Source of the DNA: Halorubrum sp. Hd13
GTDB lineage: Archaea; Halobacteriota; Halobacteria; Halobacteriales; Haloferacaceae
Direction of reading: 5' to 3'
DNA: 32,741 nt
NCBI RefSeq assembly: GCF_002252755.1
Contig: NZ_NHOY01000021.1
Location: forward strand, 1 to 32,741
Shown: in pieces, positions 5,976 to 27,876 of the stretch
Layout of the letters: each line of letters starts with the position of its first letter
Position numbering within the stretch: position 1 is the first letter of the stretch
The notes under the pieces: generated by a model
The model's database searches: none
Seen by the model: the letters and a program-made list of their open reading frames with translations, nothing else
Told to the model about the DNA's origin: nothing
Position numbers and translations under genes: made by a program

Positions 5976-6040
5976 GCTATATGGATTCAAAAACACCATG
6001 TACGAACCTGAAAAGCCTGAAAGACAGTTAGCTGGATATA

Positions 6041-6105
6041 GGCGCTAAGCCCCCACCCTCAACGGAGCGATCGAAGGGAGCGGAGTAGGGTGGGGATACA
6101 GCGCC
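6041..6105 (+). repeat. IS left-end hairpin
   Basis: An interrupted stem: GGCGCT (6041-6046) with AGCGCC (6100-6105), and CCCCACCCT (6051-6059) with AGGGTGGGG (6087-6095). Its inner part (CCCTCAACGGAGCGA) is almost the same as in the right-end hairpin (CCCTCAAGGAGCGA). Confidence 0.75.
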
Positions 6106-6201
6106 GTCATCATCTGTTCATACAGCGAAACGGTTGCAGGCCCACAGACCCACGTAGTCACAACGTTTTTCACTGGGGTACCGTACAATAGTACGAACCC
6201 A

Positions 6202-6609
6202 ATGGAGTACGACCTCGATTCGGGAGCGCACTCGACGTATTCCCTGCACTACCACCTGATACTCACTACGAAGTATCGGCGCGGAGTGCTAACCGAGGAG
6301 CGAACCCAATTCATTCGCGGGGTTATCAGCGGGTTCACGGACAAGTACGGCGTCGAACTGACGAACCTCGACGGAAAGGACGACCACGTTCACATCCTGT
6401 TCCGAGCGAAACCAACCACAGACCTCGTGAAGTTCATCAACACGGTCAAGGGCGCGACCGCCCGCCGTATCCGTAACGAGTACGAGGATGAACTGAAAAC
6501 CGAACTGTGGGGCGACTCGTTCTGGAACGACTCGTACTGCCTCATCTCGACGGGGCAGGTGTCGCTGGATGTGCTGAAACAGTACGTCGAAGACCAGCGG
6601 GAGAGCTGA
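6202..6609 (+). CDS. tnpA: IS200-type Y1 transposase TnpA
   Basis: A 135-residue HUH-type single-strand transposase, close to the usual family length. The metal-binding HUH motif is H62-V63-H64 (KDDHVHILF) and the single catalytic tyrosine is most likely Y128 (LDVLKQYVEDQ). The N-terminal strand YSLHYHLILTTKYRR is typical of the family. It is known to cut and join single-stranded element ends at the hairpins as a dimer. Both key motifs are intact, so it may be active. Its TGA stop (6607-6609) overlaps the tnpB ATG by one base, implying translational coupling. Confidence 0.95.
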   Translation: MEYDLDSGAHSTYSLHYHLILTTKYRRGVLTEERTQFIRGVISGFTDKYGVELTNLDGKDDHVHILFRAKPTTDLVKFINTVKGATARRIRNEYEDELKTELWGDSFWNDSYCLISTGQVSLDVLKQYVEDQRES

Positions 6610-7853
6610 TGTACTACGCCTACAACTACCGCCTCAAGCCGTCCGACGCCCACCGTGAGGAGTTGGACCGCCACCGCGATATTTGTCGGCAACTCTACAA
6701 CCACACGCTCTACCGCCTCAACGAGTATCAAAACGAACACGGCGAACTGCCTTCTATGACCACGCTTCGGTCGGAACTCCCCGACCTCAAGAAGTGGTGG
6801 GACGGCCTCTCCGACGTGTACTCGAAGGTTCTCCAAACCGTCGTTGAACGGTTGTTCGACAACCTCAAAGGGCTCTCCGCGCTCAAGGAGAACGGCTACG
6901 GCGTCGGTCAACTCAAATGGAAGCCGCCACGGGAGTTCCGCAGTTTCACGTACAGCCAGTCTGGCTTCAAGCTCGACAAAAAGGGCGGTCAGACTGTGCT
7001 GTCACTCTCGAAACTCGGAGACATACCGATTCGGCTCCACCGCGCCATCCCCGACGACGCGAAGCTCAAACAGGTCACGGTCAAGAAGGAACCGACGGGC
7101 GAGTGGTTCGCCACGTTCGGAGTCGAAATAGACCGTGAACCGCCCGAACCGCCTGAGAATCCCGAGCGGTGCGTCGGCATTGACGTGGGAATTCTCAAGT
7201 ACGCCCACGACACCGACGGGACCGCCGTCGGGTCGCCCGACCTCTCCGCCGAACGGGAGCGTCTGGAACGCGAACAGCGGTCCCTCTCACGGAAGGAACA
7301 CGGGTCGAACAACTACGAGAAGCAACGACGGCGGGTCGCGGAGTGTTACGCCGACCTCCGACGGAAGCGCCGTGACTTCCTACATAAGCTCTCGAACTAC
7401 TACGCTCGGGAGTACGACCTCGTGGCGGTCGAAGACCTGAACGTGAAAGGGATACTCGAATCACCGTCGAACAGCCGCAACACGGCATCTGCCGCGTGGC
7501 GAACGTTCCTCTCGTTGCTCGAATACAAGTGCAAGCGTGAGAGGACGCACTTCGTCGCCGTGAATCCGAGAGGGACAACCAAGGAGTGCGCGTCGTGCGG
7601 CGTTTCGACCGACAAACCGTTGTGGGTCCGTGAACACACCTGTCCTGCCTGCGGGTTTAAGACGGACAGGGACGCGAACGCGGCGTGGAACATCCTTTCT
7701 CGCGGCCTCGAAGATGTAGGAGTGGGACACTCCGAATCAACGTCTGTGGAGACTGCGCTCCCTGTGGACACCGACTTGGTGTCTGCAAAGCGCGTCGTGG
7801 AAGCAGGAAGCCCTACCCTCAAGGAGCGAACGGCGTCAGCCGTGAGCGAGTAG
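6609..7853 (+). CDS. tnpB: RNA-guided nuclease TnpB
   Basis: A 414-residue TnpB, the family from which Cas12 nucleases descend. The ATG at 6609 overlaps the tnpA stop; a longer frame from 6507 would run through tnpA and was rejected. Order: N-terminal YYAYNYRLKP start and wedge/REC part (1-185), then the RuvC nuclease with D192 (VGIDVG), E275 (AVEDLNVKG) and D355 (TDRDANAAWN), and a zinc finger C327xxC330 ... C345xxC348 between the last two. All catalytic positions are present, so RNA-guided cleavage next to a short target-adjacent motif is expected. The last codons run into the right-end hairpin, as expected if the guide RNA overlaps the gene's 3' end. An acidic, family-variable tail follows D355. 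Confidence 0.95.
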   Translation: MYYAYNYRLKPSDAHREELDRHRDICRQLYNHTLYRLNEYQNEHGELPSMTTLRSELPDLKKWWDGLSDVYSKVLQTVVERLFDNLKGLSALKENGYGVGQLKWKPPREFRSFTYSQSGFKLDKKGGQTVLSLSKLGDIPIRLHRAIPDDAKLKQVTVKKEPTGEWFATFGVEIDREPPEPPENPERCVGIDVGILKYAHDTDGTAVGSPDLSAERERLEREQRSLSRKEHGSNNYEKQRRRVAECYADLRRKRRDFLHKLSNYYAREYDLVAVEDLNVKGILESPSNSRNTASAAWRTFLSLLEYKCKRERTHFVAVNPRGTTKECASCGVSTDKPLWVREHTCPACGFKTDRDANAAWNILSRGLEDVGVGHSESTSVETALPVDTDLVSAKRVVEAGSPTLKERTASAVSE

Positions 7854-7864
7854 GGTAGGGTAGT
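7690..7864 (+). ncRNA. Predicted TnpB guide RNA (omega/reRNA) scaffold
   Basis: In characterised TnpB systems the guide RNA comes from the tnpB 3' end and the element's right end, with the guide taken from the flank just outside. Here the tnpB end plus the hairpin CCCTACCCT ... AGGGTAGGG (7811-7860) has the right position and a strong stem. The guide would start at about 7864 with TTCACAGTCGG and so be antisense to the 3' end of the gene at 7865-8251. The 5' limit is a guess. Confidence 0.5.
7811..7860 (+). repeat. IS right-end hairpin
   Basis: CCCTACCCT (7811-7819) pairs with AGGGTAGGG (7852-7860); an inner CGGC/GCCG stem closes over GTCA. The tnpB stop TAG (7851-7853) lies inside the second arm. 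Confidence 0.75.
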
Positions 7865-8251
7865 TCACAGTCGGTTTGTGGCGTGTTCGCCAGCTGCATC
7901 ACGAACGGCATCAAGCTCGTCGGGAGCTGCCTCTTTGAATCCGAGCCGAAGCGCAAGCCGAAGGATCTCACTGCGATCGACCTCCTCGTGCTCGAGATCA
8001 AGCCGTTGTTGGAGTCCTTCTCCAACCGAAGTCATTCGGTCAGGATTCGCTTCGAGCGCACGGACAAACGCAGCGAGATGCCCGTCCCAGACGCTGACCG
8101 TCTTCTGTTTGTCACCGTCGTCGATGGCCTCGAGTTCGCTAACAATATCGTCGACGAATGCACGGCGATCTGACGCGGCGTCTGCCGTGTCGATCCGATC
8201 GCCGTGTGCCGTCTCATCACGGAGGGCCGCGAGTTCGTCGTCCTCAGACAT
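7865..8251 (-). CDS. Small ParA-operon partner, likely DNA-binding
   Basis: A 128-residue protein from ATG at 8251 (MSEDDELAALRDET). This start was chosen over one at 8308 because it overlaps the parA stop by eight bases, a coupled arrangement. It is acidic and helical; KQKTVSVWDGHLAAFVRAL and VDRSEILRLALRLGFKEA look like a strand-plus-helices DNA-binding module, perhaps of ribbon-helix-helix type. Small genes downstream of parA in plasmids commonly encode the centromere-binding partner, so that role is inferred. The gene ends 11 bases from the convergent tnpB stop, and the IS right end abuts its stop codon. Confidence 0.65.
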   Translation of the reverse strand: MSEDDELAALRDETAHGDRIDTADAASDRRAFVDDIVSELEAIDDGDKQKTVSVWDGHLAAFVRALEANPDRMTSVGEGLQQRLDLEHEEVDRSEILRLALRLGFKEAAPDELDAVRDAAGEHATNRL

Positions 8252-9110
8252 GGATCTCACCCTGAAGCCGCTTAACGAGAAGATCCGCAGCCGCGAGATA
8301 TGCCTCACGAGCCTGTGTTGCAGTTGCTGAGGGATCGGTTAGTGCGAATGCCGTCTGCCCTTGCTGTGCAGCATTCCGAATATCCTGTGAGTAGGGGACG
8401 TAGTCGGCTGCAATCGCATCAGGATACTCTCGCTCAAACGCGTCAAGATACTCTTCAGCGAGGGTCGTTCGCGTATCGACTTTGTTCGGTAAGACGAGTG
8501 CCAGTTCAATTGTCGTCGCGAAGTTGGTTGCAATTTTGTCTAGATCGCGGCGGAGCGCGTCAGCCTGTTCAGCCTCAAACGGTCCCATCTCAATGGGGAC
8601 GATCACGTTTTGTGCCGCCCAGAGGCCATTGTATGAGACGTTGTTCGTCATGCCAGGGAGATCGATGAGGACGATATCGTACGCAAGCGGATCGACGTAC
8701 TCGTCGAGAAACTGCTCGAACCGGCTATATCGTTCGCGAGCGTCATTGATGTTTCCTAGCTCGGAGTCGAGCGTATCGAGCCCAGGGTGTGCCGGGATGA
8801 GGTCGACGCCCTCGTCAGTCGCAACGATGAGGTCATCAAGTGGGTCCGCACCCAATTTCTCTGCAATCGTCGGCCACGCATCGTCGAAGACCGTCGAGAC
8901 GTTCGGCCACGCCGCATCGGCCTCGATGCGTTGCTGGTAGTCGTCCCAGACGCCGAAGTGCTTCGCAAGGTCGCCTTGCTTGCCTGCTAAGTCGACCAGT
9001 AACACGTCGAATCCATGCTCGTTGAGTGCGATACCGAGATGGGCGACTGTCGTCGTCTTGCCGGTCCCGCCCTTATCCAGAAATGCAGCAGCACGGAGTG
9101 TTGATCCCAT
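8244..9110 (-). CDS. parA: ParA-family partition ATPase
   Basis: A 288-residue ParA/Soj-type ATPase. The deviant Walker A motif is KGGTGKTT at 13-20, with signature K13 and K18; the Walker A' Asp is D40 (LLVDLAGKQG) and Walker B is D150 (YDIVLIDLPG). These proteins bind DNA non-specifically as ATP dimers and move replicon copies apart with a centromere-binding partner. It is the first gene of a two-gene minus-strand operon, overlapping the small partner gene by eight bases. The start codon lies inside a perfect palindrome, suggesting autoregulation. It is encoded next to orc1 in the same orientation, as on many haloarchaeal plasmids. Confidence 0.93.
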   Translation of the reverse strand: MGSTLRAAAFLDKGGTGKTTTVAHLGIALNEHGFDVLLVDLAGKQGDLAKHFGVWDDYQQRIEADAAWPNVSTVFDDAWPTIAEKLGADPLDDLIVATDEGVDLIPAHPGLDTLDSELGNINDARERYSRFEQFLDEYVDPLAYDIVLIDLPGMTNNVSYNGLWAAQNVIVPIEMGPFEAEQADALRRDLDKIATNFATTIELALVLPNKVDTRTTLAEEYLDAFEREYPDAIAADYVPYSQDIRNAAQQGQTAFALTDPSATATQAREAYLAAADLLVKRLQGEIHV

Positions 9111-9417: not shown

Positions 9418-10746
9418 TCAGGTGAACTGCCAGATTTGTTGTTGTTCCTCATCGTCCGGGTCGGGAGCCTCAAACGAGGTTGCTTCATCTTCCTTGTGGT
9501 GCTCGAGAATTTCCCAGACATTATTCGGAAGCGCGTCAACGTAATCTGACTTGACAACGGCATTAATGATGTCGACGGGGTCATCTGTGACCTGGTACAC
9601 GAAGCGGCGCCCACCTCGACGCCCCTGATTGTGATCCTCTGATCGGACAAAGCCCTGCATTGAGAGCTGGTCAAGATACTCGTACAGTTTCCGCTCTGAC
9701 CGTGGATTGCTACCGGCCGCCTCGGCGATCGACGAGTACAGCGTGTAGATCCGTTTTGTCCGCGCGTCGTGGTCTGGTTCAATAATTGCGAGTGTCGTCG
9801 CGATGTACGTGAGCGCCTGCTGGCGAGTTAGATCGTTGTCGAACGAGTTGAGAATCTCGTCGGTTTCGATGGTTTCTGTTGCGCGTCGAGTATGTGCTTC
9901 GGTGACAACTGACGCGTCATCCATCCGGGCATACTCGCCCGCTTTCTCGAGAATTTTGAGCCCTTGGCGGACGTCACCGCGTTCTTGGGCGGTGAATGCG
10001 GCAGCAAGCGGGATTACCTCATCGGTTAACACACCGTCGTGAAAGGCGATCCCCGCATAGTACCCGAGGATATCACGGAGTTCGTCGGCATCATACGGTC
10101 CGAACTTGATTTCGCGTTCCCCGAGTGTGCTCTTCACTTTCGGCTCCAACGAGTCGACAAATTTCAGATCGTTCGAGATACCGATCAGCCCAATACACGC
10201 CTCGTCGATGGCTGCATTCTCGCTGGCCTCAGCGCGCGGAAGGTCATACAGAAAGTCGTTGCGTGCGTCCGGAGGGATGTTGTCGATCTCGTCAAGGATG
10301 ATGAGAACGTTCCCACCAGCGTCCTCGATCTCTTCGTACAGAAACTCGAAAACAGTATCTGTACTATATCCGCTTTTCGGGAGCGCGTTGTCAGGTGTAC
10401 GGAATTCGTTAACCAGCCGGCTCACGAGTCGGTATGACGACTTGTAGTTCCGGCAGTTGATCGGGCCGAGAATTTCGAGGTCGACACCCTGCTCAGTTGC
10501 TTTTTCGAGCAGCATGTCGCGGACCCATTTCGTGACAGCAGTTTTCCCAACGCCAGTCGGACCGTAGACGAAGACATTGTTTGGCTCGTGACCGACGACG
10601 ACATCCTGGAGCGCGTTCACGTAGAGGTCAATCTCGTCGTCACGGTGAAAGATCATCTCGGGATCGAAGCTGTCCTTCTTTAGTGGCTGTTTGGAGTCGA
10701 AAATCTCGTCCGTCCCAGCGAACGGATTTTCGTCCGTTTGCACCAT
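9418..10746 (-). CDS. orc1/cdc6: Orc1/Cdc6 replication initiator
   Basis: A 442-residue Orc1/Cdc6-family AAA+ initiator of normal length. Walker A is GPTGVGKT (62-69), Walker B LIILDEID (D152, E153), sensor 1 GLIGISND (186-193) and sensor 2 GDVRQGLKIL with R260. The C-terminal part (about 300-420) is the winged-helix DNA-binding domain, including RRGGRRFVYQV in the wing. It recognises origin boxes and opens DNA for MCM loading. The gene is bracketed by five copies of one 17-base box, two beyond its 3' end and three beyond its 5' end, so it very likely serves its own origin. A TATA-like ACTTATG lies 27-33 bases upstream of the ATG. Confidence 0.95.
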   Translation of the reverse strand: MVQTDENPFAGTDEIFDSKQPLKKDSFDPEMIFHRDDEIDLYVNALQDVVVGHEPNNVFVYGPTGVGKTAVTKWVRDMLLEKATEQGVDLEILGPINCRNYKSSYRLVSRLVNEFRTPDNALPKSGYSTDTVFEFLYEEIEDAGGNVLIILDEIDNIPPDARNDFLYDLPRAEASENAAIDEACIGLIGISNDLKFVDSLEPKVKSTLGEREIKFGPYDADELRDILGYYAGIAFHDGVLTDEVIPLAAAFTAQERGDVRQGLKILEKAGEYARMDDASVVTEAHTRRATETIETDEILNSFDNDLTRQQALTYIATTLAIIEPDHDARTKRIYTLYSSIAEAAGSNPRSERKLYEYLDQLSMQGFVRSEDHNQGRRGGRRFVYQVTDDPVDIINAVVKSDYVDALPNNVWEILEHHKEDEATSFEAPDPDDEEQQQIWQFT

Positions 10747-15360: not shown

Positions 15361-15524
15361 GCCCGTGACTGTTTGTGGGTGCCTCGATGGGGTGTCTCGG
15401 GAAGGAGTGCTCTCTTGGGCTCCCTGTGTGACAGCCAAGGGCCCACCAAGGGATAACCAAGGGGAGACCAAGAGCAAACCAAGGCCGACACCAAGGATCT
15501 GCCATCTCCTTGGCCAAGGCTTGG
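15361..15524 (+). repeat. Phased-word element A (CCAAG array)
   Basis: A GC-rich leader ends in TGCTCTCTTGGGCTCCCTG (15408-15426). CCAAG then starts at 15435, 15446, 15457, 15468, 15479 and 15491, spacings 11, 11, 11, 11, 12, separated by unrelated bases. The array ends with alternating inverted and direct words: CCTTGG (15508), CCAAGG (15514), CTTGG (15520). The first word starts 21 bases after the leader's CTTGG. It is related to elements B (16453) and C (17541) in leader and layout but uses a different word. It lies beyond the 3' end of vapC1. Confidence 0.85.
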
Positions 15525-15649
15525 TGGGGGTACTCGGATGGTGTCGATCGCCGCAGCAGGAGTGGTCTCTGGACTGCCTGCCTCTCCAGCACTCGGTGGT
15601 GGCGCTATGGGGTGGCCGAGACGCTCATAGCTTCAGTCGTGAGCGACCG

Positions 15650-16087
15650 TTAGACTGCGTGGTCTCGGAACCGGTACAGGTCAACCTCGAGTGGTAGGTC
15701 ATCAAAATCATCGTCAGTTCCGGCGACAAGCGTCGCATCACGGTCGTGGGCAAGTGCAACAGCGTACGCGTCCGCAAGTGAGATGCTCCCAGCGGCTTTC
15801 ACTTCGGCTGCTCGTCGCCAGTCAGCCGCTTCGAGTGCGACTCCTTGTCGTTCAAGCGCACGGATATCGCGGTCCGCTTCTCGCAGCGAGGCGTCTGTCG
15901 GTCCGTCATCGACACCTTCGAATCGAGCAACAAGATAGTACACTTCACTCGCGTTCGTCTCCGTCAGGAACCCATCAGTACTGGCGGTGAATACCTCGTC
16001 AAGACGATCAGCGACGGCCTCGTGACCGGGTTCGTTGTACAGGAAGGCGATGATCGCTTCAGTATCGAAGACGTACCCCCCGCTCAT
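15650..16087 (-). CDS. vapC: VapC-type PIN-domain toxin 1
   Basis: A 145-residue PIN-domain ribonuclease. Acidic metal-binding positions are D8 (YVFDTEAIIAFL), E48 (ASEVYYLVA), D106 (SLADAYAVALA) and the Asp cluster at 125-130 (GTDDDFDDLP). VapC toxins cleave RNA, often tRNA or rRNA, when freed from their antitoxin. It overlaps the upstream AbrB-type antitoxin gene by four bases (ATGA), the standard coupled order of antitoxin before toxin. The target RNA is unknown. All catalytic acids are present, so the module looks intact. Phased-word element A lies 126 bases past its stop. Confidence 0.92.
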   Translation of the reverse strand: MSGGYVFDTEAIIAFLYNEPGHEAVADRLDEVFTASTDGFLTETNASEVYYLVARFEGVDDGPTDASLREADRDIRALERQGVALEAADWRRAAEVKAAGSISLADAYAVALAHDRDATLVAGTDDDFDDLPLEVDLYRFRDHAV

Positions 16088-16380
16088 TCGTCCTCAGACG
16101 GGCGTAGCCGGTCAGCTCGCTCCGTGTCCCTGCGTTTCTCTTCTTCCTTCATTTCATGCACCCGCTCGAGTACGGCACCGCGTTCGCGCTCTCCTGCGTG
16201 AATTCCATGTAGCTCATCCGGTGACGGCACCGGCTCGATAATGATGCGTCCCTGCTCTTCATAGACGAACACCTCTCCTGGCGTCTCGATCCCGAACTTC
16301 TCGCGTAGCCCTTTCGGGATCGTGGCCTGTCCCTTCTGGGACACGCGCACGACCCTTGGTTCTGTTGTACTACTTGCCAT
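16084..16380 (-). CDS. vapB: AbrB/SpoVT-type VapB antitoxin 1
   Basis: A 98-residue antitoxin with an N-terminal swapped-hairpin AbrB domain: VVRVSQKGQATIPKGLREKF, then a Gly-containing turn and EVFVYEEQGRIIIEPV (residues about 9-52). The charged helical C-terminus (ERERGAVLERVHEMKEEEKRR) should wrap the toxin. It binds its own promoter as a dimer, and the palindrome across its start codon (16367-16389) is the probable site. TTTAGTAATA about 25-35 bases upstream serves as the TATA region. The gene overlaps vapC1 by four bases. Confidence 0.9.
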   Translation of the reverse strand: MASSTTEPRVVRVSQKGQATIPKGLREKFGIETPGEVFVYEEQGRIIIEPVPSPDELHGIHAGERERGAVLERVHEMKEEEKRRDTERADRLRPSEDE

Positions 16381-16389
16381 TAGTAGTAC
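16367..16389 (-). promoter_or_regulatory. vapB1 operator
   Basis: GTACTACT (16367-16374) and AGTAGTAC (16382-16389) form a perfect 8-base inverted repeat with a 7-base centre that contains the vapB1 start codon. It probably mediates autoregulation by the AbrB-type antitoxin. Confidence 0.65.
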
Positions 16390-16452
16390 TTACAACTCGC
16401 TGTATTACTAAATGTATCGCAGCCATACAGATTGTGAGTGTCTCGGATCGGT

Positions 16453-16620
16453 CGGCGTCCCCATCCTCGGCGGGGGCCCCACAGGCTGGTCGGGGGTGTC
16501 CGGGGGCGCACTGCTCTCTTGGAGTGCCCGTGATCGCCACGCCGGGGGACGTCGAAGGGACGTCGGGCACACGTCGAGGCAACGTCGGGCGGGGGGTCGG
16601 CTGACGGGTCGATCGACGTC
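16453..16620 (+). repeat. Phased-word element B (ACGTCG array)
   Basis: The leader 16453-16532 aligns without gaps to 17541-17620 of element C, with roughly 70% identity by eye. CTTGG at 16518 is followed 21 bases later by ACGCCG (16539), then ACGTCG at 16549, 16560, 16571 and 16582 (spacing 11), and a decayed GGGTCG at 16594 (spacing 12). The inverted word CGACGT is at 16614. It lies upstream of vapB1 and downstream of vapC2 on the minus strand. The gap 16381-16762 has no gene. Confidence 0.85.
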
Positions 16621-16762
16621 CCCGCGGCGTGGGACATTCCAACAGTTTGGGAACTCCTTCAACGAGTGTGTTCCGCTGGTTGAGTTGGCGCAGTTACAAC
16701 GCGAACCATTCTCTCCACGATTCGCGATTTCAGTGGCGTCCAAGAGACAGTGCGTATCTCGG

Positions 16763-17179
16763 TCACAAAATGATCGTCTCTATCTCATCAAGCTCAGCAA
16801 AATCAGGATCGCCAGAATAGAGCACCTCACAGTCGTCGTGGACGACAGCCGTTGCGATGTGTATCGCATCCGCGTACGATAGTTCCCGTTCCCCTGGGTC
16901 GTAGTATTTGAAGCGAAGTTCCGCAGCGTACTCCGCGATCTCGTCGATCAGCGGCATACTGTCGATATATTGGAACTCTCGTATCGCGCGCACCGTTTCT
17001 TTCGCGGTGTCTTGATCCTCGACAACACGGACTCGATACGCGACCTCAGCGATGATCGTCGGCGCAATAAGACCCCCTTCTGCAGCCGTATTCGCTCGTT
17101 CGATGAGCGATTCAGCGCTGTCTGCGTTCTCGCCGCTAAAGACGAACTCGAGCCAGACCCACGAATCGAGAAAGATCAC
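16763..17179 (-). CDS. vapC: VapC-type PIN-domain toxin 2
   Basis: A 138-residue PIN-domain protein with the full acid set: D5 ([12 protein letters not shown]), E45 ([10 protein letters not shown]), D104 ([12 protein letters not shown]) and D124/D126 ([10 protein letters not shown]). It overlaps its AbrB-type antitoxin gene by four bases. Its sequence differs clearly from VapC1, so the two modules are independent, not a recent duplication. The expected activity is RNA cleavage on antitoxin loss, giving stability to the replicon. Confidence 0.93.
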
Positions 17180-17445
17180 GTCTCGTCCTCATCAATATGT
17201 GAACTCCATGCCGCCTTCGATTCTCGCCGCATCTCCTCGATATCCACGTCGTATTCAGACAGTTTCTCTTTGACGCTCCGAAGCCGTTGTAGTGGTGGCT
17301 CCTTCGGTTGAACACGAATTGTTCCCCCTTCTTCGATAATGAACTCGATTTCCGTGCCTGCAGTCAGCCCTAACTCGTCTCGAATCCGTTTTGGGATGGT
17401 CACTTGCCCTTTGCTCGTGATCGTTGCGTTGTCTGAGACACCCAT
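17176..17445 (-). CDS. vapB: AbrB/SpoVT-type VapB antitoxin 2
   Basis: An 89-residue antitoxin: the AbrB domain [20 protein letters not shown] plus [17 protein letters not shown] (residues about 6-50), then a charged helical toxin-binding tail ([20 protein letters not shown]). The ATG at 17445 gives the normal family start. No clear palindrome was seen at this start codon, unlike vapB1. It overlaps vapC2 by four bases, and element C lies about 95 bases upstream. Confidence 0.93.
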
Positions 17446-17540
17446 ATCTTACTGCTGTATGAGTTCCTTACTATTCAATTCATGCCTTACTCTTTGCTGG
17501 AGTACAGCCCAATTGCTGTCTCGCTGCGTTGTTTCTCGAA

Positions 17541-17717
17541 CGGCGTCCCACTGCCCGGCGGTGACGCTATCGGGTGGCCGGGGGTGGCCGGGGTAGCACT
17601 GCTCCCTTGGGCTCCCTGCTCTGCAGGTCCCCACCCACGTAGTGGTGACGTAGGGTGGACGTAGAGCGAACGTAGGCCTACCCGTAGGAGCCGGCACGCC
17701 CTACACGTAGGCTACGT
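17541..17717 (+). repeat. Phased-word element C (ACGTAG array)
   Basis: The leader 17541-17620 matches element B and ends in TGCTCCCTTGGGCTCCCTG (17600-17618), almost the same as element A. ACGTAG starts at 17637, 17648, 17659 and 17670 (spacing 11), then CCGTAG at 17682 (spacing 12). The end alternates inverted and direct words: CCTAC (17700), ACGTAGG (17705), CTACGT (17712). A further ACGTAGG is at 17744. The first clear word is 31 bases from the leader's CTTGG, one unit further than in A and B, so the first unit may have decayed. The gap 17446-17972 has no gene. Confidence 0.85.
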
Positions 17718-17972: not shown

Positions 17973-19670
17973 CTAGTCGGTTCGCCGCGCGATGACGAGG
18001 CTTACTAACAGCGCAAGTACAGCAAGTCCCCCAGTAAAGCCAGGAGTACTATCATCAGTCTCACCGCCGCCGCCAGTATCTCCATCTGCATCGGCATCCG
18101 TGCCATCGCTGGCTTCCACGACCGATATCGTCGACGTTGTTGTATTCGTCTCACCGGCATCGTTCGTCACCACTAACTCGACCGTAACCTCTCCAGTCGT
18201 CTCGAATGTCGTCGTGGCTGTCTCGCCACTAAGCGACTCACCGTCGACGGTCCAGTCGTACGCAGTGATATCGCCGTACGTATCCGTTGAGGTACTCGCA
18301 TCGAGCGTCACGTTCTCACCGGTCGTCAGTTCACTGGGTGCGTCAAACGACGCTGTCGGCTCGCTTACGGCACTCACAGCGAAGTATGAGAAGCCGGGCA
18401 CCTCGCTTTCGAGGATGATCTCGTCGTCTGATTCCTCACTTACCGTCGTCGGTACTGGCTCCCACGTGCCGTCGGTGTAGCGATACGCCTGTAGATCCGC
18501 CACGTTCGCGTCTATGTCTTGCACGCGTTCGCGCGCAACGCGCTGTTCAACGATCGCCGACTCATCAGCGATCTCGTTAGGGACCGTCACTTCCGAGACG
18601 GTCGCCATCGCGCCGGGGACCGCACTCACGTTCTCGGGCGTCCGATTAAACGCAGTCGTGGTGACGCTCCCGTTGACGTCGGTACCCTCCCACGTGATCG
18701 CAACGATATTGGAGTCGTTGGTAAAGCGAACCTGTGAGAGTCCGAAGTCCTCGCTGGTGACGATTGTCTGTGACTCGGTGAGACTTCCCGGCGTCTCGAC
18801 AGTGTCAGTGTCATCGCCACTTGTGCCGTTGCCATCGGTGTCGCCACCACTGGTGTCATCGCCAGCCGGCTGGTCATCGATCGCTCCGGGGTTCCCACCA
18901 GCGCCGCCCCCGCCACTTGGCGGCGGCGCGATTGGGGCTGTCTCGGCGGCTTCAACCTCAACGGTCACATTTTCTGAATCCTGTCCTGAGCGCACAGTAA
19001 GCGTCTCACTCCCGCTCATCGTATCGTCGGTCGCCCACGTAAGCGACGTGCTCGTCGTGTTCCCGATTGGGACGGTCACTGACCCACTGTCGACGACGGT
19101 CCCATTACTGTCGACGAGCTCGATGTCTTGTGTCGAGTCCACGGGGCCAGTATTGTCGACCTCAACGTCGATCGTGGCGTCACTGCCCGCCTCGATGCTC
19201 CCCGGTGCGTTCGTGACTGCCACTTCGAGCGACGGCGCGACGGTTTCTGCGTCGGCCTCAAGCATGACTTCTTGTGTGCCAGAGTCCCACGGCATCGTCG
19301 TCCCGCCGATGGACTCGTTTTCGAGACTGGTGATCGTCACCGGTGTCCCTCCAATCTGGAATTCAACCTCACCGCTGTCGGGTTCTTGGACCACAAGGGC
19401 GTCATCTTCAGCGGCTGGGCCCCCAAATGTTCCGTCAGCGTCTGTCCGCAGCGTATGCTGAACCTCACCGTCAGCCACCGCCTGGATCGTAACTGGACCC
19501 TCCAGCGATCCGTCCGTTACTGAGAGTTCACCGTAATAGACTCCCGGAATCGACGGCACGTCATCGTCTTGTGCTGTTGCCGGTTCAACTGGTGCCGCGC
19601 CGCCGACGGTCATGGCGGTTGTGGCCAGACACACAGCAACGACAACTGTGAGAACCCGTCTACCGTTCAT
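17973..19670 (-). CDS. PGF-CTERM surface protein with PGF-pre-PGF and PKD domains
   Basis: A 565-residue secreted protein. Signal peptide, residues 1-34 (MNGRRVLTVVVAVCLATTAM to ATAQ). A short beta domain follows, then a CARDB-like domain (about 148-243: SIEAGSDATIDVEVDNTG), a Gly/Asp/Thr linker (about 245-300), the PGF-pre-PGF domain (about 305-440, containing SQVRFTNDSNIVAITWEG) and a PKD domain (about 440-525: DAPSELTTGENVTLDASTST). The PGF-CTERM end is STPGF, a helix and ARRTD, which archaeosortase A should process to a lipid anchor. The PGF-pre-PGF domain normally sits directly before the sorting signal; here a PKD domain separates them. Several NxS/T sites suggest glycosylation. It is divergent from the giant surface gene at 19972. 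Confidence 0.9.
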   Translation of the reverse strand: MNGRRVLTVVVAVCLATTAMTVGGAAPVEPATAQDDDVPSIPGVYYGELSVTDGSLEGPVTIQAVADGEVQHTLRTDADGTFGGPAAEDDALVVQEPDSGEVEFQIGGTPVTITSLENESIGGTTMPWDSGTQEVMLEADAETVAPSLEVAVTNAPGSIEAGSDATIDVEVDNTGPVDSTQDIELVDSNGTVVDSGSVTVPIGNTTSTSLTWATDDTMSGSETLTVRSGQDSENVTVEVEAAETAPIAPPPSGGGGAGGNPGAIDDQPAGDDTSGGDTDGNGTSGDDTDTVETPGSLTESQTIVTSEDFGLSQVRFTNDSNIVAITWEGTDVNGSVTTTAFNRTPENVSAVPGAMATVSEVTVPNEIADESAIVEQRVARERVQDIDANVADLQAYRYTDGTWEPVPTTVSEESDDEIILESEVPGFSYFAVSAVSEPTASFDAPSELTTGENVTLDASTSTDTYGDITAYDWTVDGESLSGETATTTFETTGEVTVELVVTNDAGETNTTTSTISVVEASDGTDADADGDTGGGGETDDSTPGFTGGLAVLALLVSLVIARRTD

Positions 19671-19971: not shown

Positions 19972-22900
19972 ATGAGTTTACGCGATCGGGTGAACCCCAC
20001 GCAGCTACTGGCCGTATCGTTTGCCGTGATTATGCTCGTCTCGATGGGCGGGATGGCGTTCGTCGGCGGTGTCGGCGCCCAGACGGGTGGTACCGCTGAT
20101 GGGCTGATTGTCGACGAAGAACCAGTCACGTCCGAGTTGGGTATCGCGTCAGGCGATGGTGATGTTCAACTCACAGGGGCCACAGATGACCTAGATGCGG
20201 AGAATGTCGACGTCGACGATGACGGTAGCATCACCGTTAACCCTAGCAACTCCGCTGGTGCTAACCAGTTCTCTGGGGTTACGGTCACCCCGAACCGGGT
20301 CGGCGTTGCTGATGGGAATCTGGCAACAGGCCTTAACGACGCCGTTGACGACGTTGTCGTTGAGGGTGATGCCGCACCCATCGTCGTGATCGAACTCGCT
20401 CCGCAGTCGAACTTCTCACAGACTAACGGCGTTGCGGGGACTCACGACTTCATCGTCATCGGTGAAGATAACGATCTGCCCGTTGATATCGACAGTACCA
20501 CCGATGGTGATATCGCAGCCTACGCTGTTAACAACGACGACGTCACCGACAACAGCGAGGTAGCTACCAGCGGGAACTTCGGTGATACTATCGACGCGTT
20601 CGTCGGTACGAGCGAGTCCGATCTTCAGAACGAGAACGTTGACGACTTCCGCATCGGTGCCGGTACCTTCGGCGACGGTGACGTAGACGTCAACGCGCTC
20701 CAGATCAGCAGTGACGCTGCCGACGGTGAAACCGTTCACTCCGAACTGATTGCGCTCGATGACGGTACCACTGAGCGCTACTTCAGTTCGGTTACTGACG
20801 CTTCCGTGGCGGCGACTGACGGTGACACAATCACTGTCGCTGATGGGACGTACACCGATCTCGAAGACGACCCGGTTGCCCTCTCGAATAACGAACTGAC
20901 CGTTTCAGGCGCTGGTGACGATACCAACCTGAACACGAATGTCGACGTGACCGGGAACAACGTCACCGTTGAAGCATTCGACATCAATGCTGAGGATGAT
21001 GACACCAACGGTATCGTCGACGTTAGTGGCGAAAATACGACGCTTCAACAACTAACTGTCGATCAGGCGACAGCTGGCACTGGCATCGACATTGCGTCGG
21101 GTGCCGATAGCGCGGTCACGACTGTTGATAACGTCACGGTCAACGCCACTGACCTTGATACAGTCACTGCTGGTGACACCGGCCTCGCGCTCGATACGAA
21201 CGCAGGCGAAGAAGTCATCGTTACGAGTTCGGCGTTCGTTGGTCACCAGACGCAGATTGCTGGCAACGACAACGTCGATGAAGGCGCGCTCCTGACTGCG
21301 AATAACTTCGCAGGCGCGGACGCACAGTCCGCTGTTGCCCGCAACACAGACGGTGACGTTGTTGGCAACGCTATCTACGGCTCGATTAACGACGCCGACG
21401 ATGCTGCGCCCGCAGATGGCAGTATCGACGTCTCAGAGGGGACGTACAACCACGGCGCCGGGACTCCGGTGACGATCGAGACTGACAACGTCACTGTTAC
21501 CGACACTGATGACGCCGCGACTGTCAACAACAATCTTGTCGTCGATAGTCGCTCTGGTGACGTTGTCGTCAATAACTTCGACGTCAACGTAGTGAGCACG
21601 ACTGGCGATGCTACTCTCGATTCGCTCAGCTTCAATGGAACTGCCGCTGACTCCTTCGATACTACCAGCGGATCTGTTACCAACGCTACGTTCACGAACA
21701 CCGACACTGGCACGGGTAACTACGACGTAACCGCCGGCAATACGGTTGACGTCGATGGCGCAGTTGGTGGCGCATTCACCCTTGACGGTGCGAGTGCGGT
21801 GAGTGTCTCCGGTGCCGACGGTGCCAACTTCGCGCTTGACAGCGCGGGTGATGTGACTGTCACTCAGACGCTGTCTGATGGTCTCGTTGACATCGGATCT
21901 GGCGCATCGACGCCGGCCGACGTGACTATCACTGACGGTGAAGCGAGTAACTACGACATTGCGGACGTGTCCGGTGATGTTGATGTTACTGGCGTGACGG
22001 TCACCGCTGGTGGTATTTCTGTCCCGAACACTGCACAGAACGTCAGCGTTGCTGACGCTAACATTACACTCGATGCTGATGGAGACACCGGCGTCGACAT
22101 CACTGCGACCGGCGAGGCCGACGAAGTCATCTCCGTAACGAACACCTCGGTCGACGGGGATACCACAACCGGGACTGGCATCGAGGTTACTGATGTCAAC
22201 TCCGGCGTGACTGCAGAGTACACTATCGAGAACAACACGCTCACGAACTTCGGTGACAGTGAGGATGCCGATATCGGTATCGGCGTGAATATCGCCGAAC
22301 AGGACTCGACAGGTCGTGAAGCCGTTATCTCGATCTCCGGCAACGTGATTGCTGGTGGAAGCGAGTTCATCGGGATCCAGGCCGACCTCTCTGCTGCCGA
22401 AGACGTCGCGATGGTCGACAACGAAATTGTCGGCGCTGACGTGAGCGGTGGCGCAGACAGTGTCGGGATCAAGTTCATCGAGGCGCCTGACTTCGGCGGT
22501 GGCTTCCTCGGTGGTGGTGACGGTGCAGCCTTCAGCGGCAACACCATCACTGGCCACGCCCGGCTCATTGAAGACCGCTCGAGCGGCGACGAGCCGCCGA
22601 TTCGGTCCGATGGCTACACGAAGATCATCAACGACCTCGACAACGACTTCGGTACGCTCGTTATCGGACCCAACGGCGACTATGAGGCTACGTACGGTGA
22701 CGACCTCGACATTAACGACAACAATGGTGAGGTCGTTTACCTGCCTGGCAGTATCAGTGAGGCGACGAACCTCGTTGGCGCGAACCCCAATGTGGATTCG
22801 GCTGACCTCCAGGCCTACGAGACTGACGTCACGGTCTCGAGTGCGATCAACTCGACACCGGACACCTACGACGACGATCCGGTCGTCTTCCCGAACGCTG

Positions 22901-25900
22901 ATGACATCACTGTGAGCGGTGAAACCGAGGCCGTCACTGCTGAGACGACCTTCGAAATCACTGGCGGTGATCAGCGGAACAACCACAATATCCGCTCGCT
23001 AATCATCGAGAGCGACGGTGACGCAATCACTGTCAGCACGACGAAGGCACAGAGCCAGTTCACGAACCTCGATGTGAACGCCACTGATGGCAGTGGTCTT
23101 ATCGTCAACGCCGACGACACCGACGTGAACGTCATCACCGTCCAAGATGTTGACTTCGAAGTCGACGAGAACGGTGTCGTTCTGTCCGGTGGTACCGGAA
23201 GCGCATCCGCACCCGCGTCTGACGACCGTGACGGCTTCACGCTTGACGGCGTCATGATCGACGGATCGGGTATCGGTGACGGCTACACCGGTCTTGATCT
23301 CACCGATGTCGAGAAGCCCGGTAAAGATGGTATCGAGGGCTTGACTATCAACGGCCTCACTGTCTCCAACTTCACCACGCAGGTGGCCGTTGGTGATCAG
23401 TTGCCCGACGAGGTTGACGGCAAAGCATTCGAGGACGGTACCCCCATCGACGTCGACGGTGTTCACATCGATAACACTGAGTTCTCGCACGCGGTCCTTG
23501 TCGAGCAGAGTAATGGGGACCTGCGGAGCGATGACCTGTACGGCTCGGTAGACACTGCTGATGACGCGGCTACTGGCGGCGACGTCATCAACATCACGAA
23601 CGCCGGTACTGGTGACTACGATCACAGCGCCCCGGTCACCATCGACACAAACGATGTTACCGTTTCAGGCGCTGATACTGTCGATGTCGAGATTCGTAAC
23701 CCGATCAATGTCGGCGGCACGGGTGAGGTGACCCTTGAGACGCTGGCCGTTGTCGCCTCCGACAGTGTTGACGTGCTGAACACTGCGGACGGCGGTACGG
23801 ACACGGCTGTCATTGGCACCGACGCTGCTACGGACCTCACGGTCCGTGACGTGGTTGTGTCGACGACCCTTGATCCGGATGATGACAACGAGATGCCGGT
23901 CGGTATCGGTGCAAGCGACACTGCATCGTCGCTCACCATCGAGAAGACCCGCGTGGGTCAGGTAACTGGCGATAGTACAACTGGTACTGCCGTCGTCGCA
24001 CAGAGTGGCGTTGATCTCAAGATCAGCGACAGCGTGCTTCGTAGCGGTGCGACGGTCATCGACACGACCACCAGCCCTGACAATACGCTCGTCTCCGAGG
24101 CATACGGCGTCCTCGCTGCTACGGAGACCAGCCCGAACATTACTGATACCGTGATCGAAGGGTTCGACGAAGACGGTATCAACACTGACGCCGATTCGCT
24201 CACCCTGACGGGTGGCGAAGTCACTGATAACAACCAGCTTGACGACCCGGACGACGCCAACAATGGTGTCGGTGGGGTCGTGGCCGACGTCACGTCTGAC
24301 GACCAGTACGAGATCGATGGCACGACCATCGAGAACAACGCTGGGCCCGGGGTCCAGCTGAAGGGTGTCGACCTCACGATGGTGGGTGCGACAGTCTCGC
24401 ATAACGCTGGCGACGGTGTCAGCGTTGACGGCGACGAGGTCACCATCAGCGACGACACGACGATCGAAGCTAATGACAATACGGGTGCTGACCTGACGGT
24501 CGCAAACGCGACGGTTGTCGACAGCACCGTTAGCGCGAACGCGAATGGGCTTGCTGTCGACGCTGGCAACGATGTCTCCGTCGACAACAACACGGTCGCG
24601 AGCCACGACGGCAACGCCGTTGATGTGGCGGCGACGACCGCGTCGGTGACAAACAACACGGTCACCGACAACGGGCTTGGGGTCACCCTCGGTCTCAGTG
24701 ACGGTGCGAACTCCACGGTCACACTCAACGAGATCGAGAACAACGGTGTTGGCCTTGAGGTCGTGTCCGGCGCAGATGGCCTGACGGTCACCGGCAACGA
24801 CATCGAGAGCACCGACACGGACATCGTGCTTAACGATGGCACGGCAGAGCTCGATGCTACGCTGAACTACTTCGGCGACAACGGTCCCGAAGCAGCCAGC
24901 GCGGCTGGACTCGACGAGGGTGACGGAACGATCGTCTACGATCCGTTCCTCAGTGAGTCGCAGGTCGACGACGTCAGCTCGGCTGCTGACCTCCAAGACA
25001 CGACCTCCTTCGGGCACGACGTTGTGGTGCCGGAGGCACCTGACGGCGAGACGGTCTTCGTGAGTGTTGGCTTCCCGGCGGAGCCGGCAACGGACAGCAA
25101 TGATCCGAATGCCGTGCCGGAAGTCCAAGACTACTTCAACACGAGTCAGGCCGGTCAGATCTACGCGTGGGACGGTGACAGCTTCGTCCCCGCTGCTCCT
25201 GGCGACGAGATTGACGCGTTCGACGCGTTCGTCGTCGAGAACGACGATAGCGGTGAGCGCGTTGCGACGATCGAATACCAGAACGACCGCAACGTGGCTG
25301 ACAGTATTGACAACGAGTACCAGTTCGAGAAGGGACTGAACTTCGTCGCGCCGCAGCAGGCTGGCACGGTCAACCAGGCGCTGTTCCCCGGTGGCCCGAC
25401 GGACTCCGTCACCCAGCCGTTCCCGGCTGGCGAGAACCTGTACGGTGACTTCGACGCCACGCAGGTTCGTGACGGCTTCACGAGCCCCGACAGCGCGCAG
25501 GCCTTCGGGAACTTCCGCTCCGGTGTCGGTGACGCCACCGTGCACCCGCACGCGGGGTACTTCGTGACGGTCAACGAGAACTCCAACGTGAACCTCTCGG
25601 TGACCGAGCGGATTCCGGTGGCGTCCGGACCGACAGAACAGACTGAGCCCGCCGCCGACAACGTCGCCGACCGGACGGACGCGACGTCCGGCACGGTGAC
25701 GAACATCGACACGGGCGCAAGTTACACCAGCCTCAGTGAGGCTGTCCAGGAGGTCGACGACAGCCAGACGCTGGAGTTCGGTGCCGGTGTCTTCGCGAGT
25801 GACACCGACGAGATCCTCGTCGACAACGAAGACGTGACGCTTCGTGGCGCCGCGACGTCGGCGACGGTCATTGACGCGAACGTCACGATTGCGGCCGACA

Positions 25901-27876
25901 ACGTGCGTGTGTCTGACCTGACGGTGGTCGGCACGCTCGACTCGACGGCTGCCGGCACGATCGTCGAGGAGACGAACGTTGTGGCCAACAGTCCGGGTGA
26001 CGTCACCCTCAACGGTGACAACGCCCGCCTGAGCAGTGTGGACGTCGAGAAGAACATCAACGTCAACGGGAACAACGCGGACATCAGCGAGAGCAGTGCT
26101 GGTGAGCAGCTGACCGTTGATGCTAGTACTTCCGGTGTCTCGGTGAGCAACACGCAGGCTGGAAGCTTCGACATTCCGGCTGAGGCTAACGCAGGCGGAC
26201 TCAGTACGAACACGGTTGTAGTGGACACCGCTGCTGACCTCCGTGATGCTGCAACGGATGAGTACAGTCAGCCCGTCGGCTCACAGACGACAATTGTCGT
26301 GAGCGACGATGTCGAACTCACGGACACTCAAGTTGACGTCGAGGTTAACGGCGTCACTATCGAAGGCGCACAGGACGACACGCTCGTGAGTCTTACCGGT
26401 GACACCACCACCCAGAAGGTCTTCGAGATTGGAGCCGACGACGTGACGCTCCAAGACCTTGCCGTTGAACGGACTGGTGGGCAGGTGCTCACAAACGGGC
26501 CAGCCGGAACGCAAGCTGTCGTCATCCGCGACGCCTCTGGTGTGACGATCGACAATGTCGACATCACGGCTGATGGCGATGTTGCGAGCGGGATTGCGGT
26601 CCTCGATGGTGGGCCTGAGAACACTGACGCTGGTGCTGCGACAGACATCACCATCGTCGACTCCAGTGTGGGAGCTGCGACCGCCGAGGGGACTGGCCCC
26701 GTAACCGGTATCAATGTGGCTGCGGCCTACGCTGGTGAGGTCGATGCCGTGACGGTAGAAGACAACGGCATTGAGGCCGGTTCGAATGGCCTCATCGTCT
26801 CCACGACGAGTGTTGGTCTCGGTGCGTCTGAGCCCGGTACGTTCGGTGCTGAGGGCGTCACCGTGACTGATAACAACTTCGTTGGCACGTTCAGTGATGC
26901 TGCTGTCACTGAACTCGCTGCGGCTAACGACGATGCGGTCGACGTGCTCGACTTCAGTGCGGTGTTCGAGGACAACAGCTTCGACCAGGCGGCAGCTGCC
27001 GTCGCTGACGGTGGCGACGACGTGCGGACCGAGACAAAGACAGTGACGAACGCGCTGGGTAATGAGGTTGAGATTGAATCCGGCGCAATCGTCTCCAGCG
27101 TTCAGGCTGCCGAGGATATCGCACAGGACGGTGACACCGTTGTTGTGGCTGGTGGCACCTACGCGGAATCCGTGACGGTCGATACGGCAAACCTGACGAT
27201 TGCAGGTGCAGGTGCTGACGCGACGACGATTGACTCTACCTCTGGTGCGACGATCGAAATTAGCGGTGCCGATGGTGTGAGTATTAGTGGTCTTGAGCTA
27301 GACGGTAGTGGTAGCAGCAACAGCGGTGCTCAAGGAATCAGTATCCAGAACGGTGGCTCCGCAACCGTTACTAACACGGACATTACCAACGCGTTTGGGG
27401 GTATTCAGACCCTCTCCGACGAAAGTAGTGTGACCGTCGATGATGTTGAAGTGACCAACAGTGTCTTTGGTGTTGGACTTCAGAGTAGTTCATCAGACGT
27501 TGTGCGTAACAGCACCTTCGATGTCTCGACACAGGGAATCGGTATGTCTGGTGATGCTGCTAATGTAGAGATCACCGGTAACGAGATCGATGTTGAGGAG
27601 TCGGAGAGTACTACGTTCGACCAAGAACGTGGGATTGACTTCGCTGCAGATAGTGAAAATGTCACCATCGAGAACAACGTCATCAGCAGCACTGACACCG
27701 GTATCATCAGTAATACGGGTCTGGATAATGTGACCATCAGCGGAAACGACATCGCTGGAGACCTGACTCATATCGATGACAGTGCCGAGGCGCTTGATCT
27801 CGAGGCCATTCTGGGTGGCAACACCTTCGACCCTGCTGGCGTGGTCGATGGTACCCAGATTGTGCCTGAAGAGTAG
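19972..27876 (+). CDS. Giant secreted beta-helix surface protein
   Basis: 2634 residues. The N-terminus MSLRDRVNPTQLLAVSFAVI with the following hydrophobic run and VGAQ is a haloarchaeal surface-glycoprotein signal. Most of the rest is short strands rich in Asp, Thr, Val and Asn with NxxT(V/I)xxN-like turns, typical of right-handed parallel beta-helices (NosD/pectate-lyase type). Modules restart at residues near 270, 470, 1190, 1918 and 2374; the clearest openings read DGDTITVADGTY and DGDTVVVAGGTY. Residues about 1685-1885 are a different insert (VSVGFPAEPATDS, later FEKGLNFVAP). NxS/T sites are frequent. There is no PGF-CTERM or C-terminal helix: the protein stops at QIVPEE. It is probably an adhesin or cell-coat protein; attachment is unclear. 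Confidence 0.85.
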   Translation: MSLRDRVNPTQLLAVSFAVIMLVSMGGMAFVGGVGAQTGGTADGLIVDEEPVTSELGIASGDGDVQLTGATDDLDAENVDVDDDGSITVNPSNSAGANQFSGVTVTPNRVGVADGNLATGLNDAVDDVVVEGDAAPIVVIELAPQSNFSQTNGVAGTHDFIVIGEDNDLPVDIDSTTDGDIAAYAVNNDDVTDNSEVATSGNFGDTIDAFVGTSESDLQNENVDDFRIGAGTFGDGDVDVNALQISSDAADGETVHSELIALDDGTTERYFSSVTDASVAATDGDTITVADGTYTDLEDDPVALSNNELTVSGAGDDTNLNTNVDVTGNNVTVEAFDINAEDDDTNGIVDVSGENTTLQQLTVDQATAGTGIDIASGADSAVTTVDNVTVNATDLDTVTAGDTGLALDTNAGEEVIVTSSAFVGHQTQIAGNDNVDEGALLTANNFAGADAQSAVARNTDGDVVGNAIYGSINDADDAAPADGSIDVSEGTYNHGAGTPVTIETDNVTVTDTDDAATVNNNLVVDSRSGDVVVNNFDVNVVSTTGDATLDSLSFNGTAADSFDTTSGSVTNATFTNTDTGTGNYDVTAGNTVDVDGAVGGAFTLDGASAVSVSGADGANFALDSAGDVTVTQTLSDGLVDIGSGASTPADVTITDGEASNYDIADVSGDVDVTGVTVTAGGISVPNTAQNVSVADANITLDADGDTGVDITATGEADEVISVTNTSVDGDTTTGTGIEVTDVNSGVTAEYTIENNTLTNFGDSEDADIGIGVNIAEQDSTGREAVISISGNVIAGGSEFIGIQADLSAAEDVAMVDNEIVGADVSGGADSVGIKFIEAPDFGGGFLGGGDGAAFSGNTITGHARLIEDRSSGDEPPIRSDGYTKIINDLDNDFGTLVIGPNGDYEATYGDDLDINDNNGEVVYLPGSISEATNLVGANPNVDSADLQAYETDVTVSSAINSTPDTYDDDPVVFPNADDITVSGETEAVTAETTFEITGGDQRNNHNIRSLIIESDGDAITVSTTKAQSQFTNLDVNATDGSGLIVNADDTDVNVITVQDVDFEVDENGVVLSGGTGSASAPASDDRDGFTLDGVMIDGSGIGDGYTGLDLTDVEKPGKDGIEGLTINGLTVSNFTTQVAVGDQLPDEVDGKAFEDGTPIDVDGVHIDNTEFSHAVLVEQSNGDLRSDDLYGSVDTADDAATGGDVINITNAGTGDYDHSAPVTIDTNDVTVSGADTVDVEIRNPINVGGTGEVTLETLAVVASDSVDVLNTADGGTDTAVIGTDAATDLTVRDVVVSTTLDPDDDNEMPVGIGASDTASSLTIEKTRVGQVTGDSTTGTAVVAQSGVDLKISDSVLRSGATVIDTTTSPDNTLVSEAYGVLAATETSPNITDTVIEGFDEDGINTDADSLTLTGGEVTDNNQLDDPDDANNGVGGVVADVTSDDQYEIDGTTIENNAGPGVQLKGVDLTMVGATVSHNAGDGVSVDGDEVTISDDTTIEANDNTGADLTVANATVVDSTVSANANGLAVDAGNDVSVDNNTVASHDGNAVDVAATTASVTNNTVTDNGLGVTLGLSDGANSTVTLNEIENNGVGLEVVSGADGLTVTGNDIESTDTDIVLNDGTAELDATLNYFGDNGPEAASAAGLDEGDGTIVYDPFLSESQVDDVSSAADLQDTTSFGHDVVVPEAPDGETVFVSVGFPAEPATDSNDPNAVPEVQDYFNTSQAGQIYAWDGDSFVPAAPGDEIDAFDAFVVENDDSGERVATIEYQNDRNVADSIDNEYQFEKGLNFVAPQQAGTVNQALFPGGPTDSVTQPFPAGENLYGDFDATQVRDGFTSPDSAQAFGNFRSGVGDATVHPHAGYFVTVNENSNVNLSVTERIPVASGPTEQTEPAADNVADRTDATSGTVTNIDTGASYTSLSEAVQEVDDSQTLEFGAGVFASDTDEILVDNEDVTLRGAATSATVIDANVTIAADNVRVSDLTVVGTLDSTAAGTIVEETNVVANSPGDVTLNGDNARLSSVDVEKNINVNGNNADISESSAGEQLTVDASTSGVSVSNTQAGSFDIPAEANAGGLSTNTVVVDTAADLRDAATDEYSQPVGSQTTIVVSDDVELTDTQVDVEVNGVTIEGAQDDTLVSLTGDTTTQKVFEIGADDVTLQDLAVERTGGQVLTNGPAGTQAVVIRDASGVTIDNVDITADGDVASGIAVLDGGPENTDAGAATDITIVDSSVGAATAEGTGPVTGINVAAAYAGEVDAVTVEDNGIEAGSNGLIVSTTSVGLGASEPGTFGAEGVTVTDNNFVGTFSDAAVTELAAANDDAVDVLDFSAVFEDNSFDQAAAAVADGGDDVRTETKTVTNALGNEVEIESGAIVSSVQAAEDIAQDGDTVVVAGGTYAESVTVDTANLTIAGAGADATTIDSTSGATIEISGADGVSISGLELDGSGSSNSGAQGISIQNGGSATVTNTDITNAFGGIQTLSDESSVTVDDVEVTNSVFGVGLQSSSSDVVRNSTFDVSTQGIGMSGDAANVEITGNEIDVEESESTTFDQERGIDFAADSENVTIENNVISSTDTGIISNTGLDNVTISGNDIAGDLTHIDDSAEALDLEAILGGNTFDPAGVVDGTQIVPEE

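Follow-up and report, generated by a model that had tools for sequence, protein, structure and literature searches.

Iteron origins of plasmids and phages are built from tandem direct sites, and the promoter of their rep gene carries inverted half-iterons. In the type II (ParMRC) partition system of plasmid R1, ParR requires no fewer than two repeats of 11 bp; the repeats vary from one plasmid family to another and determine specificity (PMC9426499). The experimentally mapped origin of pRN1 lies 3' of the rep gene, which codes for a primase-polymerase, contains a stem-loop of ~100 nt and lacks iterons (PMC4234260). Haloarchaeal origins adjacent to Orc1/Cdc6 genes carry origin recognition boxes (PMC3528665).

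The window analyzed here is a stretch of 32,741 nucleotides from Halorubrum sp. Hd13, which constitutes one whole contig of the assembly and for which no terminal overlap was found. Within positions 15389-17717 it contains three elements, A, B and C, each composed of a leader, four to six six-base words at steps of 10-12 bp and, thereafter, inverted copies of the word. The initial annotation had placed three elements of the same layout here, and all three were found, with small departures from the steps and gaps it gave. Chains of four or more 5-mers occurred in 0/200 dinucleotide shuffles of the whole window, compared to three such arrays within 2.3 kb of the real sequence.

The leader of element A, GGGGTGTCTCGGGAAGGAGTGCTCTCTTGGGCTCCC, is located at 15389-15424 (+) and is matched by the profile models R1 and R2. 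It is followed by six CCAAG words at 15435-15495 (+), five of which read ACCAAG, starting at 15435, 15446, 15457, 15468, 15479 and 15491 (steps 11, 11, 11, 11, 12). A terminal block of inverted, direct and inverted words, CCTTGG-CCAAGG-CTTGG, was read directly at 15508-15524 (+). The words have an ortholog at locus L091 of genome G110, and blocks similar to the terminal one are present at L091 and at the Haloglomus irregulare locus L479, both described below. A partial leader-like copy without an array is found at 15594-15618 (+); its 25 nt match the beginning of the C leader region with 88% identity. Element B starts with its leader at 16493-16530 (+), followed at 16539-16587 (+) by ACGCCG (16539) and four ACGTCG words (16549, 16560, 16571 and 16582; steps 10, 11, 11, 11). 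One inverted word, reading CGACGT on the plus strand, is seen at 16614-16619 (-), and 216 bp of the element align with its counterpart in L091 at 72.7% identity. In element C, the leader at 17581-17616 (+) precedes four ACGTAG words (17637, 17648, 17659 and 17670) and one CCGTAG (17682), which together span 17637-17687 (+) with steps of 11, 11, 11 and 12. The L091 ortholog of this array is 79% identical over 81 columns. The terminal words CCTAC, ACGTAG and CTACGT, again inverted, direct and inverted, were read directly at 17700-17717 (+).

The leaders are homologous: the 38-nt copy in B has 74% identity to that of A and the one in C 82%, and between B and C the identity is 76% over 75 nt, which bears out the common leader proposed initially. 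The final 12-base step proposed along with it is present in A and C, but not in the five words of B, and a constant gap of 21 bases between leader and first word was not found, as the gap measures about 10 bases in A and about 20 in C. The bases between words had been regarded as unconserved; they do differ from spacer to spacer, but some of them are common to neighbouring words (GAGCAAAC / GAGGCAAC / GAGCGAAC). A simple tandem repeat was rejected as an explanation, since the spacers differ between words and background tandem repeats look different. All three words, ACCAAG, ACGTCG and ACGTAG, share an AC-NNN-G frame. A search of the window's own genome with a core-motif pattern returned 264 loose matches, and among the 30 loci examined phased arrays were present only at A, B and C.

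Related arrays are present in other haloarchaea. By blastn, profile searches and searches with the protein of a small ORF that follows some arrays, we collected at least 15 arrays in at least nine haloarchaeal genomes, numbers that are lower bounds because the elements of G027 and G083 fell below the thresholds of the profiles. Searching 148 genomes of the family with element C by blastn gave one strong match outside the window genome, on contig 92 of G110 (L091). Each of the three arrays has an ortholog at this locus, with 73%, 75% and 79% identity, and a TnpB gene lies between A' and C'. The words of A' and C' are those of A and C in the window, and B' alternates between ACGTCG and ACGCCG. 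A sequence-only profile run against 392 genomes of the order found G045, G119 and G147, and a second profile run against 167 genomes of the family found G169. The small-ORF protein alone, used as query, led to G027, G083 and Haloglomus irregulare, and in all three an element was located upstream of the ORF. In Haloglomus a second array occupies the opposite strand and consists of four ACCAAG words, three ACGTTG words and, inverted, two CTTGGT words. When 170 and 392 genomes were scanned with the generic pattern (ACNNNG N5)x4, homologous arrays were found only in the window genome (G000) and G110, the remaining matches being tandem repeats or chance. Blast searches of C and B against plasmids and of A against phages gave no relevant matches. 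In IMG/VR, words at 11-bp spacing were counted in at least 120 stretches for ACCAAG, 60 for ACAACG, 57 for CAAAGC and 12 for ACGTAG; the excess of ACCAAG was set aside as evidence because the background is high.

Across the elements, 144 of the 167 pairs of AC[C/G]NNG sites within 60 bp of each other are separated by ~11, 22, 33-35, 45 or 56 bp, compared to a mean of 3.5 in shuffled sequences; as the element sequences were chosen for having arrays, this count reflects the tightness of the register and is not an independent test of the existence of arrays. In Haloglomus, ACGTTG words stand at relative positions 0, 22, 45 and 56, so that the register is kept across missing words and whole turns are skipped. 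A register that persists where two or three turns separate the words is easier to reconcile with a protein reading double-stranded DNA than with a single strand, and we regard it as the main evidence that the duplex is what is read. An arrangement of the words on one face of the DNA, suggested initially from the one-turn spacing, agrees with the ~11-bp register, but is only approximate because the mean step of ~11.2 bp exceeds the 10.5-bp turn of B-DNA.

The initial annotation had further described the words as uniform within an array and different between arrays. This applies to A, B and C, and the words of A and C are retained in G110, but other arrays mix their words. The array of G169 contains five different ones (ACGCCG, ACGAAG, ACGTTG, ACGTAG and ACGTCG), L166 and L167 combine ACGTCG/ACGCCG, ACCAAG and ACGTTG within one array, and in Haloglomus ACCAAG switches to ACGTTG inside a single array. 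What is left of the idea of word diversification is more modest: homogenisation to one word is seen in some arrays, and the words differ between paralogous arrays of the same element. What is invariant in the family is the AC[C/G]NNG frame together with the spacing of ~11 bp, not the uniformity of the word. The two expectations that the layout would recur in intergenic DNA of other haloarchaea and that its spacing would stand out from shuffled controls were both confirmed, as the arrays form a real family with helical phasing as its hallmark. Most members have inverted word copies, which are located at the 3' end. A dyad in the leader can be made out clearly in roughly half of the family, being strong in L165, L167, L479, L483 and L484; it was discarded as a defining feature because A and B lack a strong one.

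The small ORF that follows some of the arrays codes for an uncharacterised haloarchaeal protein of ~139-178 aa, with members at L166:9028-9447 (-), L483:8523-9059, L484:9253-9705 and L479:5926-6375. At L166, L167 and the G169 locus an ORF of ~139 aa comes right after the array, the L167 copy having an internal stop. In all six genomes that have the ORF an element lies directly upstream of it, including the three found by the protein alone. In L166 and G169 an inverted CAACGT immediately precedes the start codon, and in G027 one is found close to it. The protein is marked by the conserved motifs M-T..GGW, GRYR.IRR..GRI and W.YET. Searches of Pfam, PHROG and NCBIfam with the L166 sequence gave no match, and a structure predicted from five sequences at low confidence (pLDDT 72.5) revealed no recognisable DNA-binding fold and no significant match in the PDB. 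No relatives of the ORF were found in the window, L091 or L165, each of which has two or three arrays.

The genes around the arrays include functions of replication, partition and mobility. The window codes for a ParA-type ATPase at 8244-9110 (-; Pfam AAA_31/CbiA, NCBIfam ParA_partition below cut-off) and an Orc1/Cdc6 initiator at 9418-10746 (-; Pfam Cdc6_lid and Cdc6_C, NCBIfam TIGR02928 with 357 bits). Both are candidate partners of the arrays in a plasmid context, but lie ~5-7 kb away from them, a distance that weighs against the replication or partition reading proposed below. A tyrosine recombinase of 197 aa, reduced to the catalytic domain, is encoded at 692-1285 (-; Pfam PF00589) and has relatives near the arrays in L091, L165 and L483, the one in L483 being 74% identical. 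An IS200/IS605 element with TnpB at 6028-7869 is of the ISHma12 type, and many haloarchaeal plasmids have copies with ~88-91% identity to it. The window also codes for three small winged-helix paralogs, at 262-645, 2312-2629 and 2800-3039 (+), with one homolog in L091 at 16129-16485 (-). On the other side of the arrays, an ORF of 2634 aa with right-handed beta-helix/NosD repeats (19972-27876, +) adjoins a gene for a PKD-domain protein (17973-19670, -).

At some other loci the arrays are found next to replication genes. In L165, L166 and the Haloglomus locus, primase-type genes end about 100-870 bp before an array, which is therefore located 3' of the gene; of these, the primase of Haloglomus is a relative of the replication protein of pRN1 (E 6e-25). 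L091 encodes a PHROG 'replication protein', whereas at L167, L483 and L484 no gene of the primase type was recognised. Relatives of the L165 Rep at 29 other loci, checked over limited flanks, had no such array nearby, nor did five haloarchaeal plasmid records with pRN1-type primases in the stretch examined, which argues that the array is not a fixed origin of those Rep families. Type I-B cas operons are present 3' of the primase-type gene and the array in L165 (1583-6431, -) and L166 (497-8814, -), comprising cas6, cas8b/TM1802, cas7 and cas5, plus cas3- and cas4-like genes in L166. Their position beside a primase-type gene and an array in two genomes suggests a mobile element that carries CRISPR-Cas. 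Defence-like genes were also seen near two other array loci, namely a DUF1156 DNA methyltransferase at L483:13236-15905 (-) and a UvrD helicase-nuclease with a PD-(D/E)XK protein at L484:1035-6119 (+).

A literature search that covered few subscription journals found no description of this layout. The initial annotation knew of no family with it, and indeed none was found with the exact leader, word and layout, but direct sites at about one turn are known from plasmids, and the arrays appear to be phased direct-repeat binding arrays, a kind already described. Iteron origins and the R1 parC centromere are the working models nearest to them. Judged from sequence, the arrays resemble iteron origins in their tandem direct sites, in the inverted copies near a start codon and in the replication genes nearby at several loci. 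They depart from them in the size of the site, 6 bp recurring about once per turn compared to iterons of ~20 bp, and in that no single Rep family accompanies them. A Rep gene is adjacent in L165, L166 and L479 and absent or distant elsewhere. Short direct repeats in 11-bp steps and a plasmid setting are likewise features of R1 parC, to which a small reader protein and specificity words belong (PMC9426499). Unlike in type II partition, no ParM actin-like ATPase or ParR adaptor was recognised among the neighbouring proteins scanned, a subset of the ORFs. A further difference from R1 parC is that one element can have several arrays that differ in their words; to our knowledge, neither the leader nor the inverted words are part of R1 parC. 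The pRN1 origin is matched in the position of the elements 3' of a primase-type gene in Haloglomus, L165 and L166, but not in the window, L167, L483 or L484; moreover, it is the arrays that dominate here, and most members have no comparable stem-loop of ~100 nt. In pRN1 itself (L514), short words (ACATA, ACATCT) at steps of about 10 bp occur at 793-840 and 1635-1675, away from the mapped origin, and may be analogous. With regard to the origins next to Orc1/Cdc6 genes, such a gene does share a contig with the arrays, but at a distance of about 4.6 kb or more.

Many short direct sites one turn apart, inverted copies, some of them near a start codon, and plasmid-like carriers together have the anatomy of a landing strip for a protein that binds at multiple sites. 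We therefore consider it about an even chance (roughly 50%), on the basis of sequence comparison, that A, B and C are cis-acting double-stranded DNA elements of haloarchaeal plasmid-like and integrated mobile elements and serve as a replication or partition site. A putative reader protein, probably of the winged-helix or ribbon-helix-helix type, would fill neighbouring direct sites in a row on the same face of the helix, and the same protein, or a dimer of it, would occupy the inverted sites. The resulting nucleoprotein block could act in iteron-type replication control or as a parC-like centromere and, at the six small-ORF loci, where a gene follows, might also control that gene as an operator. 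Where one element has two or three paralogous arrays that differ in their words, each array would be a site of its own, and readers or affinities might differ between them.

The constant linkage to the small ORF could also mean that the element is in the first place a transcriptional operator of that gene, bound by its product or by a host regulator, and that A, B and C have lost the gene or regulate their neighbours. The inverted word abutting the start codon in L166 and G169 would suit this reading, and so would the recovery of three of the six genomes through the protein alone. We regard it as possible, though unlikely, given that the window, L091 and L165 maintain two or three arrays without a relative of the ORF, that the modelled protein shows neither a DNA-binding fold nor a significant PDB match, and that five or more sites plus a dyad are elaborate for a simple operator. 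Pairing between direct and inverted words offers another explanation, in which the element acts as structured RNA or single-stranded DNA, for instance a small RNA, an RNA antitoxin or a leader. Since the inverted copies match the direct words, hairpins do form: folding z scores are about -3 for B and C and -4 for the second Haloglomus array, and two-sided changes occur in at least one sequence at 9/16 consensus pairs. Nevertheless, the consensus energy of six sequences is negligible (-2.87 kcal/mol in all) with an unfavourable covariation term, the excess in B and C is similar on both strands, and A (plus strand), L165 and L166 show none. An Rfam search gave no hit at the gathering threshold, and a strict register of ~11 nt that skips whole turns is unexpected for RNA, which leaves this reading rather improbable.

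Two further explanations start from the genes between the arrays of the window. Between A and B lie vapB1, coding for an AbrB/MazE-type antitoxin (16084-16380, -; Pfam PF04014), and vapC1, coding for a PIN-domain toxin (15650-16087, -; Pfam PF01850); between B and C, vapB2 (17176-17445, -; PF04014) and vapC2 (16763-17179, -; PF01850) code for proteins of the same types. The resulting order of array, VapBC, array, VapBC and array at 1.1-kb spacing would be expected if the arrays were recombination sites, either arm-type sites of a tyrosine recombinase or integron-like boundaries of movable VapBC cassettes, and a catalytic-only recombinase is indeed encoded at 4/9 array loci. However, VapBC modules between arrays were recognised only in the window and at none of the other array loci, and we judge them to be passengers and not parts of the element. 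The recombinase family is found in 9/13 relatives searched, mostly without arrays, and no array is present near its G151 homolog; the encoded enzyme, furthermore, consists of the catalytic domain only. A role in recombination thus appears quite improbable. The position of B and C upstream of vapB1 and vapB2 would alternatively be explained by operators of the neighbouring VapB antitoxins, each module having its own word, which would also account for the difference between words. This is very improbable and largely contradicted by G110, where orthologous arrays, those of A and C with the same words, are present at L091 and no VapB was recognised. In addition, no vapB is found on the leader side of A, and the words are ~160-240 bp away from the vapB starts.

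Returning to the arrays as cis-acting sites of plasmid-like and integrated elements, the differences between their words may be taken further. Recognition could be coded by the word, with each paralogous array homogenised to its own word and read by a different paralogous DNA-binding protein, for example one of the three winged-helix proteins of the window. We hold this to be decidedly doubtful; if true, such a system would give a single replicon individually addressable sites for its replication, its partition and its regulation. The cis sites that serve the replication, partition and control of haloarchaeal plasmids and integrated elements are little known, and a family recognisable by its phase, with AC[C/G]NNG every ~11 bp, presents a concrete target for finding the reader protein. 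The arrays may also serve as an incompatibility marker for haloarchaeal mobile elements, and their natural word variants offer material to study how the specificity of DNA reading shifts under a constant architecture.
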